Below, in pieces: positions 14,833 through 27,676 of a stretch of DNA of 27,676 nt. The translations under genes and the position numbers were made by a program. The stretch's first letter is position 1; every line of letters starts with the position of its first letter. The DNA lies in IMG/VR virus record IMGVR_UViG_3300035179_000328, positions 1 to 27,676 of that record; one strand, written 5' to 3'. A model generated the notes under the pieces. That model made no database searches. It saw only the letters and a list, made by a program, of their open reading frames with translations, and was not told the DNA's origin. The DNA comes from a virus.

Positions 14833-15699
14833 TTAAACACCAACCTCTTCGATGTTTTGAACACATTTATCGACAAGTTCATTTTCTAGCTGAATAAAAT
14901 CGTCAAGTAATGGAACTTTGCGAAGTTTTTGGACATAACGATACATTTTCAAGTTTGTGTTAGATAGTTGTTTTTCCCAATGTAAGAACCCTGTGCAGGG
15001 CATGCACCCAGACCGCTCAACCTTTTTGTAAATCTCATTGATTGGAAGATTATTTTCCTCTAAGTATTCTCGAACCTGCTTGTGTGACCAAAAACCAATT
15101 GGATGGTAACGCCATAAACTTCCCCATTTTTGAGTGTGGTAATATTGACCTCGTTGAGCAAGCGTAAACATCCGCAAACGAGATTCAGAACAACGAAGCC
15201 CTGTTAAAGTTGCTTCAATTTCAAATTCTTTGCATGCTTCTTTGAATGGTAATTCCTTAAGGAAAACACAACATTCTGGTTTATGAAACATTTTCTTTCC
15301 TTTAAACCTATATGCTTCTCGTAGAAGTGGAAAGCCATATTCTTTCACGCATTGCCAGAAATTCTTTTTGGGTTTCGTTTCAATTAAGTTAAGATTCCAT
15401 TCTTTTTTGAGAAGGTTTCGGTAAGCATAAGTTTCAGGATACTCCACACCCGTATTATTGAAAACAACCTTGATGTTTGGATTAACTTGTAAAGCCATGT
15501 ATAGAACCACAACGCTACAACTTCCAAAACTGCAACTAACAGCAATCTTATCGCCATGTTTTTCAATTGCTTCTTCCACTAATAGTTCTGGTTCTTTAAT
15601 TTCGGTTGGGCAGTTCCGCATTGCGTAGGTTATCCTAGCTCTTTCAATTTTTGGAGAAAGCCCTATTTTCGGTGAAGCCTTTTCTGAAAAGGGTTCCAT
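14833..15699 (-). CDS. PAPS/APS reductase-like (CysH family) protein
   Basis: About 288 aa from ATG 15699 (TAATG coupling to a mini-ORF; ATG 15720 is the alternative, numbering below uses it). It has the CysH PP-loop VSCSFGSCSVVVL (61-73), NTGVEYPET (89-97), TGLRCSESRLR (173-183), a CC pair (150-151) and SGCMPC (237-242). The CC ... CxxC set is the [4Fe-4S] signature of APS/PAPS reductases, which reduce activated sulphate to sulphite. However, the C-terminal catalytic Cys motif (ECGLH-like) is not seen, and the tail is KCVQNIEEVGV. So a sulphur-transfer or nucleotide-binding role other than sulphate reduction is quite possible; archaeal and bacterial viruses often carry such genes. It is by far the largest metabolic-type protein of the early operon. 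Confidence 0.82.
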   Translation of the reverse strand: MEPFSEKASPKIGLSPKIERARITYAMRNCPTEIKEPELLVEEAIEKHGDKIAVSCSFGSCSVVVLYMALQVNPNIKVVFNNTGVEYPETYAYRNLLKKEWNLNLIETKPKKNFWQCVKEYGFPLLREAYRFKGKKMFHKPECCVFLKELPFKEACKEFEIEATLTGLRCSESRLRMFTLAQRGQYYHTQKWGSLWRYHPIGFWSHKQVREYLEENNLPINEIYKKVERSGCMPCTGFLHWEKQLSNTNLKMYRYVQKLRKVPLLDDFIQLENELVDKCVQNIEEVGV

Positions 15700-15764
15700 T
15701 ATCTTCCTGTCCCCACGCATTTTCGCTTTGCTTGTCGTTCCAAAAACTTCGTATGCTTCCTCAC
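15699..15764 (-). CDS. 21-aa basic mini-ORF coupled to the CysH-like gene
   Basis: GTG 15764 follows GGGAGTGA and encodes MRKHTKFLERQAKRKCVGTG R; its TAA shares a base with ATG 15699 of the CysH-like gene. It may be a leader that couples translation, or simply the 5' leader of that gene. Strong ribosome site and TAATG junction are the only support. Confidence 0.35.
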   Translation of the reverse strand: MRKHTKFLERQAKRKCVGTGR

Positions 15765-21177: not shown

Positions 21178-21597
21178 ATGAGGAAACTCGCATGGTTCAT
21201 AATCATCCTAGCAATCTTAACACCGACAATAATTGCTTGTGGCCTAGCCATTCCCACATTCGGAGAAAACCTGCACTACTTATTTGTTAAAGTGTTAGGC
21301 GAAGGCACAGCAAACTTGCTCTTAGGCGCAATCACTGGCCTATTCTTGTGGGGAACAGTAAATGGTTTGCAAGCAGCAGCCGTGTTTGTAGGCTTGCTCA
21401 TAACCGGCGGCGTCATTTGGGTATGCATCAAAAAGTTTCTGTGGGATCGTAGACCACGCCTAATGAAAACTGCTGAACAAAAAATTTATCAGCACACGCC
21501 AATAGCGGCATTGCCGCAAGTTACGGCTGAACCGGTTCCACAGGCGATAACTAAACCAGAACTGGAAGCAAAGAAAGAGGAAGCCACAGCATCATGA
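21178..21597 (+). CDS. Multi-span membrane protein of the cassette
   Basis: 139 aa, ribosome site GGAGGTGA. Three hydrophobic helices: about 5-25 (LAWFIIILAILTPTIIACGL), 45-62 (NLLLGAITGLFLWGTV) and 66-86 (AAAVFVGLLITGGVIWVCI). The C-terminal 50 residues are soluble, Pro/Glu/Lys-rich and probably cytoplasmic. Overlaps the GTPase start by four bases (ATGA), so the two are likely made in fixed ratio and may interact, the tail being a possible docking site. Confidence 0.72.
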   Translation: MRKLAWFIIILAILTPTIIACGLAIPTFGENLHYLFVKVLGEGTANLLLGAITGLFLWGTVNGLQAAAVFVGLLITGGVIWVCIKKFLWDRRPRLMKTAEQKIYQHTPIAALPQVTAEPVPQAITKPELEAKKEEATAS

Positions 21598-23754: not shown

Positions 23755-24155
23755 ACATTAAGGCCATAGCGTCAATCCTAATCATAGCCCTATTAACTTT
23801 CACAACTCTAGTTTATGCTGTGCCTTGGATTTTAAGCATCTTCACACATGGCACGATAAAATCGGCATATGAATTAACAGCGACTCCATCAAGTATTGAC
23901 TGGGGCAACGTCACTTTAAACACGCCCTTTAGTCGGCTAGTCGACATTACAAATGTTGGAACCATAAACATCACAAAACTAACCATGACATACAATAACT
24001 CTTCACCAAACCTAATGGCTTACACATTAACGTGGAACTGCACAGACATTGCTTTGCCAGTCGACGACTATGTCACCGCAAATTTTACCTTAACCATCAT
24101 CACAGCGGAAGCAGGGCCATTCAGTTTTGACATTTGGATAGGCGACAATGTTTGA
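23751..24155 (+). CDS. Secreted/anchored Ig-like beta protein
   Basis: 134 aa. N-terminal signal or anchor helix (IKAIASILIIALLTFTTLVY) followed by VPWIL, then an all-beta domain: SSIDWGNVTLNTPFSRLVDI, TNVGTINITKLTMTYNN, LTWNCTDIALPVDDY, TANFTLTIITAEAGPFSFDI. The order matches an Ig-like sandwich of the 'N.G....v.l......' type frequent in archaeal surface proteins. Several N-x-S/T sites could be glycosylated. It would face the cell surface. Confidence 0.7.
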   Translation: MNIKAIASILIIALLTFTTLVYAVPWILSIFTHGTIKSAYELTATPSSIDWGNVTLNTPFSRLVDITNVGTINITKLTMTYNNSSPNLMAYTLTWNCTDIALPVDDYVTANFTLTIITAEAGPFSFDIWIGDNV

Positions 24156-24478
24156 CAACAGACAACTGGATTAATGAAGAGCGCATATTCAACCACAAAT
24201 GCAGGCTAGTCTACGAAGCCTACTTAGAAATGGTTTACCCCGGCTGGATAGACCATTATTCAGACGGCATAGTTGACGCACTCTTAACCCACTGGAAAAC
24301 AGACAAGCAAGATCGGATTCACGCTCAAACAGTAGCGACAAAATGGCTCATTCCAACCCTGAACAGAATCAAGCCGACACCCGCTTGGATATTTTATGGA
24401 GCTCCAACCAGCACCGTGCAATGTCCACACTGCGGAAAAACGATGACCGTGCCCCAAAACTGGAAAGGAATGATATAG
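24152..24478 (+). CDS. Unrecognised protein with terminal CxxC
   Basis: 108 aa from TTG 24152, sharing TTGA with the preceding stop; an earlier TTG at 24134 would overlap by 22 bases. NEERIFNHKCRLVYEAYLEM, then YPGWIDHYSDGIVDALLTHW and NRIKPTPAWIFYGAPTSTVQ CPHCGKTM show a helical body and a single C-x2-C at the end, a half zinc site that could pair in a dimer. Last gene of the cassette. Confidence 0.62.
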   Translation: MTTDNWINEERIFNHKCRLVYEAYLEMVYPGWIDHYSDGIVDALLTHWKTDKQDRIHAQTVATKWLIPTLNRIKPTPAWIFYGAPTSTVQCPHCGKTMTVPQNWKGMI

Positions 24479-24486
24479 CCTCGAAA

Positions 24487-24705
24487 CAGACTCTATCCTA
24501 AGGAGTCGCACCACGGCTCAGAATTTTAGTGTCTCGGTTTGGCAGTTATCCATAAAACTGTCTGCAGATAGAGTTTGCGAGACTGCGTAAACGTTGAATC
24601 CTAACCCGTCCAAACCGCTTCTGGAACAGTCCATTCTCCTTTCATGTTAGACGGTTCAACGGCGCAAAACTTCAACTGACAGCTGTCAGTTACTTTCGTA
24701 AGAAA
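24487..24705 (+). ncRNA. Candidate structured RNA with pseudoknot
   Basis: 220 bases without a convincing gene. Helices: A, CAGACTCTATC 24487-24497 with GATAGAGTTTG 24567-24577 (11 bp, one G-U); B, GTCTCG 24531-24536 with CGAGAC 24578-24583; C, TGCG/CGTTGAA/CCGTC (24584-24587, 24592-24598, 24606-24610) with GACGG/TTCAACG/CGCA (24650-24654, 24655-24661, 24663-24666). Local hairpins lie at 24503-24519 and 24541-24562 inside helix A, a 9-bp palindrome at 24674-24691, and TTTC-GTAA-GAAA at 24694-24705. The 3' strands of A and B and the 5' strand of C are exactly contiguous, and B crosses A, giving a pseudoknot. The strand is assumed from the flanking genes. It does not match the HDV-like or group I layouts I know. 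A packaging RNA, ribozyme or regulatory RNA are the options; it could also be a DNA-level packaging site. Confidence 0.55.
24674..24691. repeat. 18-bp perfect palindrome upstream of terminase
   Basis: AACTGACAG followed by CTGTCAGTT is fully symmetric. Placed about 310 bp before the small terminase gene, it could be a dimeric protein site (for example for packaging) or a hairpin ending the structured RNA. Confidence 0.6.
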
Positions 24706-24716
24706 CAAGATAATAG

Positions 24717-24746
24717 GTGTCCCCTAAATGTCCCCAACCACACAAA
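24717..24746 (+). repeat. Duplicated leader/start, copy 1 (copy 2 at 24989-25018)
   Basis: GTGTCC-CC-TAAATGTC-CCC-AACCACACAAA here matches GTGTCC-TT-TAAATGTC-TTT-AACTACGCAAA at 24989-25018, the start of the small terminase gene. All differences are transitions and the spacing from GTGTCC to ATG is the same (11 bases). The two copies lie before two consecutive genes. Confidence 0.7.
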
Positions 24747-24757
24747 AAGTGAAATGA
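24728..24757 (+). CDS. 9-codon relic of the TerS start
   Basis: Encodes MSPTTQKVK, parallel to the TerS start MSLTTQTLK, then stops with TGA that overlaps the next ATG (ATGA). It could couple translation of the following ParB-like gene or be a remnant of a duplicated gene start. Confidence 0.4.
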   Translation: MSPTTQKVK

Positions 24758-24951
24758 TTTTGAAAGAAACTCTGTTAGACAATCTTAAGAAATCAGCGGA
24801 AGACATAGGACAACTATATCCTGTCTTAGTCGATGCGGACACTGGTGAAGTTTTAGATGGTAAAACACGTTTAAAAGCTGACCCGAATTGGCGAAAAGAA
24901 ACAGTGAAAGTTGAAGATCCAATTAAGAAATTAAAAATTAAACCTTTATAA
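24754..24951 (+). CDS. Stand-alone ParB-like box protein
   Basis: 65 aa. IGQLYPVLVDADTGEVLDGK, then TRLKADPNW matches residues 107-135 of the 414-aa early protein (LGQLVPCLQDAEG-ITIDGFHRLKINPKAW) at G-Q-L, P, L, D-A, D-G, R-L-K and P-x-W. This is the ParB/sulfiredoxin-like core, but the rest of the domain (further helices, HTH) is missing. Ends with basic PIKKLKIKPL. It sits directly before terminase small subunit; a DNA-site adaptor for packaging or an antagonist of the larger paralogue are possibilities. Confidence 0.65.
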   Translation: MILKETLLDNLKKSAEDIGQLYPVLVDADTGEVLDGKTRLKADPNWRKETVKVEDPIKKLKIKPL

Positions 24952-24953: not shown

Positions 24954-24999
24954 TTACCAATTTTAACAATGAAACCACACGGGGATAAGTGTCCTTTAA

Positions 25000-25359
25000 A
25001 TGTCTTTAACTACGCAAACTCTTAAACGATTGCCATACATTCAGCAAGGCTTGCATGAAGGCTTAAACCGACAACAAATTGGACAAGCCTGTGGAGTAAC
25101 AGAGAAAACCATAGACCGAGACATGAACGCTTGGGTAGAATCAGGCTTATTTGAAATCTGGATAAAAAAAGAATTCGTAGAAACCTATCCCGACATTAAA
25201 CGGGAAGACAAGGTTTTAGCGTTTCAAGAAATCGCCAAACTTGTGGGCAAAATGTTAACTCGTAAGATTGAACGGAAAGAACAAATTGACATTCGCCAAA
25301 TCATAGTTAAAATGTGGAAGCCACCTTTAGAAGAGAACCAGATTGAGCCAACAACTTGA
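25000..25359 (+). CDS. Terminase small subunit candidate
   Basis: 119 aa. The N-terminal half carries a clear helix-turn-helix (GLHEGLNRQQIGQACGVTEK, then TIDRDMNAWVESGLFEIW), as in DNA-recognising small terminases; the C-terminal half is helical (EIAKLVGKMLTRKIERKEQI) for oligomer formation. It overlaps the large subunit by 17 bases. Small terminases choose the packaging site and regulate the motor. A plain transcription regulator is the alternative, but position decides. Confidence 0.72.
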   Translation: MSLTTQTLKRLPYIQQGLHEGLNRQQIGQACGVTEKTIDRDMNAWVESGLFEIWIKKEFVETYPDIKREDKVLAFQEIAKLVGKMLTRKIERKEQIDIRQIIVKMWKPPLEENQIEPTT

Positions 25360-26590
25360 AGTAATCTTCCGCTACATTCCCCACTCTAAACAAGAAGGCT
25401 TCCATAATGACCGTTACAAAATTCGTTATAGGGCTGTCTTCGCAGGAACAGGCAGCGGCAAAACATTATGCGGAGTATTTGAAACATTAAGCATGTTGCT
25501 AGAGAATCCAAGGGCAGTCGCTTACATTTTTGAACCCACATACAAAATGGTCACCCGCATATTGTTACCCACACTCGAAAGCCATTTGCTCTTAGGCAAA
25601 CCCATAGAGTCAAACCCAACCGTTCAGGCTTTTAGACGCGGAGACAACTGCATAGAATTCCGAGACGGACAAACATTATGGTTCGGTTCATTAGAAGAGC
25701 CTGAAATGGCTGAAGGACCAAACATAGACATAATTCACGTTGACGAAGCACAATACATCAGACGATTCAGCGAAAGTTGGGATGTTATACTCCGCAGGTT
25801 AAGGGGAAGCGGAAGAACTAGCCACGACATTTCCTGTGCCCTAGTAACCACAACGCCGCCAGCCCTCTTGCCGGGTGATAGGCTATATGAATTCTTTGAA
25901 AACCCAGAAACACGGAATCCACTGAGCAAAGTTTACCGTTGGAGCCTCTACGATAATCCCCATGTTTCAGAGCAGTATAAAACCGAAATTACAGCCTCAC
26001 ATCATGGAAGCCTCGCCAAACGGTTCATAGAGGGCTTATTTGCACCTGCGGGTACAGGAAGCTTCGACTTTGACAGTACAATTCATGAAGTGAAAGAAAT
26101 TGAAAAAACAAAAATCAGAACAGTCATCTACGCAGTGGACTTCGGATGGACTAATCCTTCCGCCATTGTGGCAGTTGGATTCGACAACGATGACCGTGCA
26201 TATATCATGGATGAATTTTACCAGAACAGAGTGCAACCCGAAGTACTCATTAGCGAATGCAAACTCATGGTGGAGCAGTGGGGAAAAGGATCAATATATT
26301 GCGACAGAAGCGAACCGCAACTAATTGACGCATTCCGCAAGGCCGGGTTAGACGCTAAAGCAGATGCAAGCAAAAGAGATGATGGCATTCACGAGTTAGG
26401 CGGCAGATTTAAAGTTCAAGAAGATGGTAAACCTCGAATATTTGTGCAGCGTACATGTGTTAGTTGGATTCATGAGGTTATGGTTTATGATGCGGAAGTG
26501 AAAGAGAACGATCACGCAATGGATGCTACACGTTATGCTTTAATGGGTCATAAACATCCTACAAGTAACATAAGTTTCCTATTTGGATAA
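25343..26590 (+). CDS. Terminase large subunit
   Basis: 415 aa, TTG start inside TerS. Walker A GTGSGKT (35-41), Walker B IDIIHVDEA (128-136) and the coupling motif VTTTPP (168-173) form the packaging ATPase; the nuclease has YAVDFGWTNPSA with D266, YCDRSEPQLIDAF with D321, and DHAMDATRYAL with D394, the three acids of the RNase H-like fold. It drives DNA into the prohead and cuts at the end of packaging. All key residues are present. Followed by the portal gene 11 bases downstream. Confidence 0.93.
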   Translation: MSQQLEVIFRYIPHSKQEGFHNDRYKIRYRAVFAGTGSGKTLCGVFETLSMLLENPRAVAYIFEPTYKMVTRILLPTLESHLLLGKPIESNPTVQAFRRGDNCIEFRDGQTLWFGSLEEPEMAEGPNIDIIHVDEAQYIRRFSESWDVILRRLRGSGRTSHDISCALVTTTPPALLPGDRLYEFFENPETRNPLSKVYRWSLYDNPHVSEQYKTEITASHHGSLAKRFIEGLFAPAGTGSFDFDSTIHEVKEIEKTKIRTVIYAVDFGWTNPSAIVAVGFDNDDRAYIMDEFYQNRVQPEVLISECKLMVEQWGKGSIYCDRSEPQLIDAFRKAGLDAKADASKRDDGIHELGGRFKVQEDGKPRIFVQRTCVSWIHEVMVYDAEVKENDHAMDATRYALMGHKHPTSNISFLFG

Positions 26591-26601: not shown

Positions 26602-27676
26602 ATGCCGAATCCTAAAGGCTTACGATACACAAAGGACGGAGGCTTAATCATTCACCCAGACGTTGCCCTAGACACTACTGAGGGCAGCAGCATAAAAATC
26701 CCGCAGGTAGACACGGCTTTAGGCGCAGGCTTCGGCGACACCATAGCCGACGCGGATCGAGCCTTCGCAGCCACACGCGAACCCGTAGCCCACTTCTTAA
26801 CTTACGGCGTAGCCGCCGACATAACTGACAAATGGTTCAAAATAGACGACCCCGACACTGAAGAAGCAGACCCCGCACTTGACAGAACAGTGCAAGACGC
26901 TTTGTCACAGCTCAAATTTAAAACTCGTCTCACGGAAGCGTTAGAACAGGAACGCATCTACGGCTGGAGCCTAATAGTTGCTGGCTTCGACGACGTGCAA
27001 GACATCAACAAACTAAGCACTCCACTTAAGCCGGGAAGCCAGCTAAAGCAACTTGCTGTTTATCCAAGCACAAAAGACGGCTACAAAACCAAACAAGTCG
27101 AAGTAGACCGGAAAGACATGGACCCGTCTAGCGCAAGGTTCGGGGAACCATTAATCTATAAATTGTACAAGGGCGAAGGCGCATATCTACATGTTCATTA
27201 CACACGTGTATGCAGAGTTCAGACACGAAGCGACGCTTCATCTGTACTAGACCCAGTTTGGGATGACTTGAACTGTGGACGCAACATAAGATGGGGCGCT
27301 GCACAGTGGATGTACCGCAACGGCGGAGGCTTCCCAGTTGTAGAGTTTCCAGCAGGCACAACCGTGGACAAACTTGAAGAGTGGTCGGCAAGTGGCGCAT
27401 TCGCAGACTTGATGAGTCGCACCTATATTTGCATAGCCCAAAACAGCGCAACAGAAAACAATGGCATGAAATTTCATTTTGAAGGTGCACAGGGCAGAGC
27501 ACTTGACCCCACAGCCTTCTTTAAAACGAACATTGAACAAGTAAGCGTGGCAACAGGGATTCCTCAGCCTAAACTTGTTGGTGCACAGGCTGGAGCGGTG
27601 ACTGGCAGCGAAGTGAACATGCAAGACTATTACAAAGTAATTAGCAGGATTCAATCAAGCCTCGAAGACACAGTGC
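26602..27676 (+). CDS. Portal protein, N-terminal part (continues at base 1)
   Basis: ATG 26602 with GTGAG upstream opens a frame that runs off the window end and resumes at base 1 in the same frame after removing the 127-base overlap, giving about 505 aa. Features of DUF1073-type portals: ERIYGWSLIVAGFDDVQDIN (the 'yG.s.i.l' core), then HVHYTRVCRVQTRSDASSVL (the 'h.sRvl.f' segment), and FKTNIEQVSVATGIPQPKL. An Asp/Glu-rich stretch, DDPDTEEADPALD, lies near residue 85. Upstream terminase and downstream head genes support the role. Confidence 0.9.
   Translation, partial: MPNPKGLRYTKDGGLIIHPDVALDTTEGSSIKIPQVDTALGAGFGDTIADADRAFAATREPVAHFLTYGVAADITDKWFKIDDPDTEEADPALDRTVQDALSQLKFKTRLTEALEQERIYGWSLIVAGFDDVQDINKLSTPLKPGSQLKQLAVYPSTKDGYKTKQVEVDRKDMDPSSARFGEPLIYKLYKGEGAYLHVHYTRVCRVQTRSDASSVLDPVWDDLNCGRNIRWGAAQWMYRNGGGFPVVEFPAGTTVDKLEEWSASGAFADLMSRTYICIAQNSATENNGMKFHFEGAQGRALDPTAFFKTNIEQVSVATGIPQPKLVGAQAGAVTGSEVNMQDYYKVISRIQSSLEDTV
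27550..27676. repeat. Terminal direct repeat, right copy
   Basis: Identical to bases 1-127. Removing one copy yields a circular sequence of 27,549 bp with the portal gene intact. Confidence 0.95.

Follow-up and report, generated by a model that had tools for sequence, protein, structure and literature searches.

We asked what is encoded in the block directly ahead of the terminase genes of a viral genome from IMG/VR (record IMGVR_UViG_3300035179_000328; all 27,676 nucleotides were analyzed and are hereafter called the window). An earlier note, made from the sequence alone, had described the block at 24487-24705 as one structured RNA in which three helices, A, B, and C, use adjoining strands. 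Instead, we found the block to be a composite of several parts (Table 1): A and B lie on an indel of which the nearest relative, L083, has no copy, C belongs to a conserved element, and the perfect palindrome and GNRA-closed hairpin of the second half, both present as described, form a separate motif. Beyond 24670, the aligned window and L083 sequences part ways again. Folded whole, the 219-nt block gave a z score of -2.17, with 4 of 200 shuffles folding equally well. The statement that no gene fits the block holds for open reading frames (ORFs) of at least 60 amino acids, except that a minus-strand ORF (24284-24514) enters its 5′ edge.

Table 1. Features of the block and the terminase locus, with related sites in other records (window coordinates unless a record is named)
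Feature	Position	Strand	Evidence or remark
Insert with helices A and B	24479-24583 (105 bp)	+	Alignment with L083; no database copy
Helix A	24487-24497 with 24567-24577	+	11 standard pairs including one G-U; no homologue
Helix B, crossing A	24531-24536 with 24578-24583	+	6 standard pairs; no homologue
Conserved hairpin element (holds helix C)	24584-24670	+	19 full-length members; covariation; covariance model R1, 81.1 bits in window
Basal helix GCGU/GCGC	24585-24588 with 24662-24665; AAA bulge 24589-24591	+	Nearly invariant in all members
Upper stem of helix C	24592-24600 with 24653-24661	+	Compensatory changes in all 9 pairs (19-sequence alignment)
Loop, pyrimidine-rich	24601-24652	+	Pyrimidine 0.63 versus 0.48 genome-wide
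Near-invariant 3′ edge GGCGCAAAA	24661-24669	+	AUG 1-4 nt beyond in 12 of 19 members, not in window
18-bp perfect palindrome AACTGACAGCTGTCAGTT, separate motif	24674-24691		32-bp match upstream of terS in L443/L345
GUAA-tetraloop mini-hairpin	24694-24705	+	Part of same 32-bp motif; partly kept in L443
terS, terminase small subunit, HTH type	25000-25359	+	Position; homology to TerS of relatives
terL, terminase large subunit	25343-26590	+	PF03237, E = 6e-15; phrog_2, E = 1.4e-38
TGTCC-N(4-6)-AAATGTCC sites	24988-25002; L003 4661; L008 1190; L404; L430 3597; L431 3389; L325		
Stretches without plus-strand ORFs in element-lacking relatives	L484 2402-3138; L456 1788-2104; L485 3144-3484; L494 2356-2609		

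Helices A and B, B crossing A, are exact at the positions first reported. L083 was found through the gene at 24134-24478 (85% nucleotide identity). There, the helix-C region starts directly at the stop codon of the homologue of this gene, leaving a clean gap for 24479-24583, and matches the window at 87.5% identity over 88 columns. Since L083 is entirely without 24479-24583, A and B represent an indel of the window virus. Alignments placed neither helix in L083 or in any other member of the element, database searches returned no copy of the insert elsewhere, and a nucleotide search of phages and plasmids with the block gave nothing credible. The contiguity of the strands, thought unlikely by chance in the earlier note, turned out not to be exceptional: a 6-bp helix adjacent to, and crossing, an 11-bp helix arose in 10 of 1,000 dinucleotide shuffles, and the same type of arrangement occurred in 5 of 243 (plus strand) and 12 of 243 (minus strand) stretches of equal size from the same genome. 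Given such pseudoknots in 1% of shuffles and 2 to 5% of other genome stretches, the A/B pseudoknot is probably due to chance; the insert probably lies outside the conserved RNA. A single pseudoknotted RNA made of A, B, and C is therefore hardly credible; their strands do adjoin with no spare bases, but A and B are missing from every other member, including L083, where the preceding gene and following element are 85 to 87% identical. The insert carries one open frame of 38 codons, which runs to a TAA inside the element (GCG-TAA). We rejected it as a remnant of an upstream gene, since the frame has no ATG, GTG, or TTG start and no homologue.

What stands of the proposed structured RNA is the element that holds helix C. 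Pattern scans of IMG/VR from its shared edges, GCGTAAAC and GGCGCAAAAC, together with covariance models, recovered 19 full-length members (window, L083, L406, L325, L405, L006, L005, L004, L286, L315, L363, L404, L345/L443, L427, L492, L429, L442, L431/L432, and L430). Outside these 19, L487 has a 5′-truncated copy, and L449 and L003 have divergent, weak copies upstream of terL. The sequence GACGCAAAACAATG in L448/L452/L455 was considered as an element edge and rejected, as no matching hairpin was found. From a structure-blind MAFFT alignment, RNAalifold predicted the same hairpin, in which 6 pairs were compensated. Among 13 sequences in structure-blind alignment, 95.8% of cells were paired, compared with 86.1% in shuffles and only 26 to 49% when partners were slid by 1 to 3 columns; covariation was 0.363, versus 0.202 in shuffles, with 6 pairs changed on both sides. 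In the alignment of all 19 sequences, double changes reached 9 of 9 upper-stem pairs (41 cells versus 12.6 in shuffles), although this alignment, unlike the first, was built to fit the model and is biased toward it; in all these counts the member sequences are related, so that cells and members are not independent events. Cells that departed from Watson-Crick pairing comprised 20 G-U, 3 A-C, and 6 others, and such an excess of G-U over A-C indicates folding of plus-strand RNA rather than a duplex DNA dyad or a fold of the other strand. Judged by comparison of sequences, helix C is far above chance and the element is a conserved structured RNA, its compensatory changes exceeding the controls. 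The covariance check suggested in the earlier note was thus passed by helix C, while A and B had no homologue to compare; a conserved protein frame, which the note had named as counterevidence, was not found through the helix-C element, where several members have stops in all frames.

Helix C had been described as 16 bp long. It is present but interrupted, consisting of 4 bp, a 3-nt AAA bulge, 9 bp, and further pairs. Across members, the element is 74 to 89 nt long, and its edges, GCGUAAAC and GGCGCAAAA, are nearly invariant. Since the basal helix hardly varies, covariation cannot be tested on its pairs. Upper-stem sequences vary widely (CGUUGAA/UUCAACG, CACUGAG/CUCAGUG, CGUCUUCGG/CCGAAGACG, CGUCGACAC/GUGUCGGCG, and others), and single-base indels distinguish the window element from that of L083. 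The hairpin does not resemble an intrinsic terminator, as no U-run follows it; AAA(A/C) comes next in all members.

Each of 13 element-bearing records searched whole contained one confident copy (two further weak matches, with E values of 0.14 and 0.8, were discounted), as did each of three more records in a second batch. In every member whose record shows the terminase region, the element has coding-strand orientation and precedes terS-terL; for the L405 copy, only upstream genes are seen. Likewise, every terminase-anchored covariance model match above 24 bits was in the coding orientation and preceded terL, across three TerL types. At least three TerL types follow the element (that of the window, a 480-amino-acid type as in L325, and a 435-amino-acid type as in L315), at 0.4 to 2.8 kb from element to terL, and the genes on both sides vary among members. 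L363 and L404 have identical elements (74 of 74 positions) but different flanks, and BLASTP detected no similarity between their TerS proteins. L083 and L406 have elements one base apart and different TerS N termini, and the TerS of L443 is unrelated. No match to the element was obtained anywhere in the records of L484 and L485, whose TerL proteins are 77 to 78% identical to that of L315, or in those of several L325-type viruses. When element-bearing and element-lacking viruses were compared, none of the genes shared with the window proved to be an exclusive partner; a small gene at 21178-21597 came closest, being present in 10 of 12 viruses with the element and 3 of 8 without. Upstream of terS, element-lacking relatives have long, stably folding stretches without plus-strand ORFs, in which other structured elements may sit.

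Structure, strand, a single confident copy per record, a fixed place ahead of terS-terL-portal, and independence of terminase type are shown for the element. We propose, with a probability of about one half, that 24584-24670 would act in cis, as an RNA between cistrons of the late operon, to control expression across a gene-block border. We rank a cis-acting mRNA element first because the hairpin shows RNA-type pairing and persists where TerS and TerL have been replaced. In the polycistronic mRNA, it would present a foot rich in GC and bulged by AAA, a 9-bp stem that varies in sequence but is always complementary, and a loop rich in pyrimidines, acting in cis between the small genes that precede the terminase and the packaging and morphogenesis genes. 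A protein or a terminating ribosome may recognize the invariant GCGUAAAC/GGCGCAAAA foot, such that translation would be gated or coupled, or a point of mRNA processing marked, at this border. Gating, coupling, or processing would be most natural given a layout of stop, hairpin, and start: the UAA of the upstream frame (GCG-UAA) falls at element positions 5 to 7, inside the foot, in about half of the members, and the next AUG often lies 1 to 4 nt past the 3′ foot. Several element-bearing viruses, among them that of the window, lack an AUG in the next 10 nt or so, which means that a role at the start codon is not universal, and given the insert before its foot, coupling may be lost in the window virus. 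Further considerations speak against a cis-acting border element. Short gene spacing, normal in viruses, could explain the positions of the stop and AUG codons, and a generic coupling device is not expected to occur only once per genome.

The earlier note had also raised a packaging role, as an RNA or as a DNA packaging site. We consider it unlikely that the element is a DNA pac or cos site or an RNA used by the terminase motor. The phi29-type prohead RNA (pRNA) is a virus-encoded structured RNA near packaging genes, and the element is similar in these respects; it differs in being a single hairpin of 75 to 90 nt between genes, without an Rfam match and kept regardless of terminase type. With pac and cos sites upstream of terS it shares position and single copy number, and its distance to terL stays within the range given above despite differing genes between. 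However, a duplex DNA site would not be expected to show conserved RNA pairing with G-U on one strand. Furthermore, a pac or cos site should be inherited together with the TerS that recognizes it, whereas identical or nearly identical elements stand beside unrelated TerS N termini, which argues against recognition by TerS. Persistence of the element across replacements of both TerS and TerL weakens packaging RNA and packaging site alike, as does its absence from L484 and L485 despite their related TerL. The same holds for psiM2-type viruses: L315-type TerL and that of psiM2 (a Methanothermobacter virus) share 49% identity, but a covariance model search of the terminase regions of psiM2, psiM100, and PhiF3 found no element. 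We also looked for contig ends at the element, as a cos site would give, and rejected this possibility: no shared end position was seen, the starts of L406, L429, and L487 all being different.

HK022 put and Bacillus EAR are cis-acting antitermination RNA hairpins of long operons and are indifferent to gene identity. A comparable leader, acting on elongating RNA polymerase for the long morphogenetic operon, would suit a single-copy hairpin fixed at the head of the packaging and structural block regardless of which genes follow. We regard this as distinctly unlikely, since the block is embedded in a series of genes on one strand, with no mapped promoter directly before it, and a limited literature search found no antitermination RNA in archaeal viruses; we also know of no put- or EAR-like RNA in them. 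The element differs from put and EAR in having no sequence relation that we could find, an archaeal-type setting, and a putative role. Processing of the intercistronic region into a small RNA that acts in trans is improbable: the compact, strongly structured fold and the irrelevance of flanking genes would fit, but the element tightly adjoins the flanking ORFs and neither a promoter nor a terminator is evident. A recombination or mobile site, or an origin hairpin on single-stranded DNA, appears very improbable. The element persists while genes to either side of it are swapped, and like integron attC it is an imperfect inverted repeat with a conserved foot, a variable paired stem, and unpaired bases on one arm; however, attC sites occur in arrays, each after a cassette gene, whereas each record has a single confident copy of the element, invariably at one and the same border in the genome, and alignment revealed no GTTRRRY core at its foot.

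The palindrome that follows the element is the only one of such length in the window (0.11 expected). Together with the GUAA hairpin it forms a 32-bp motif (24671-24702) with a 94% match at L443 2924-2955, upstream of terS and about 960 nt after the L443 hairpin element; pattern searches of IMG/VR found no third copy. The motif could be a separate candidate protein-binding site. Further downstream, the start of terS is duplicated (24728-24757 and 25000-25029); the truncated copy, ATGTCCCCAACCACACAAAAAGTGAAATGA, preceded by GTGTCCCCTAA, is found 270 bp ahead of the authentic start, and a ParB-like 65-amino-acid ORF (24754-24951) is located between the two. In several of these viruses, a TGTCC-N(4-6)-AAATGTCC direct repeat spans a start codon, mostly that of terS. 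Elsewhere in the window, a PAPS reductase (CysH-like) gene is found at 14833-15720 (PF01507, E = 3.7e-32). Portal gene sequence occupies 1-570 and 26602-27675; with both ends within this gene, the record looks circularly permuted or cut in portal.

Orphan structured RNAs are already known as a kind. The earlier note could name no RNA family for the block, and Rfam 15 bore this out: the window and 12 member loci gave no matches at the gathering cutoff, and 24400-24800 gave none at E values up to 10. A limited literature search found no description of the element, and the main text of a paper on Bathyarchaeia viruses does not mention one (PMC10848311). The element represents a new RNA family of putative function. 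The tailed viruses that bear it are probably archaeal, since their named terminase relatives include haloarchaeal and methanogen viruses; bacterial phages were also among the terminase matches, and a TerL search of genome contigs for hosts returned distant bacterial matches only.

Conserved regulatory or packaging RNAs are hardly known in archaeal tailed viruses. It is possible, though doubtful, that the element is a terminase-independent hairpin needed once per genome for late expression or packaging in these viruses and read through its invariant AAA-bulged foot; if so, it would be the first such cis-acting or packaging RNA that we know of in archaeal viruses. Its precise anatomy, the covariance model, and a membership of at least 19 make the element testable by mutation and restoration of its stem. 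As a fixed border between freely exchanged gene blocks, it may also be useful for delimiting modules and start sites of these genomes.
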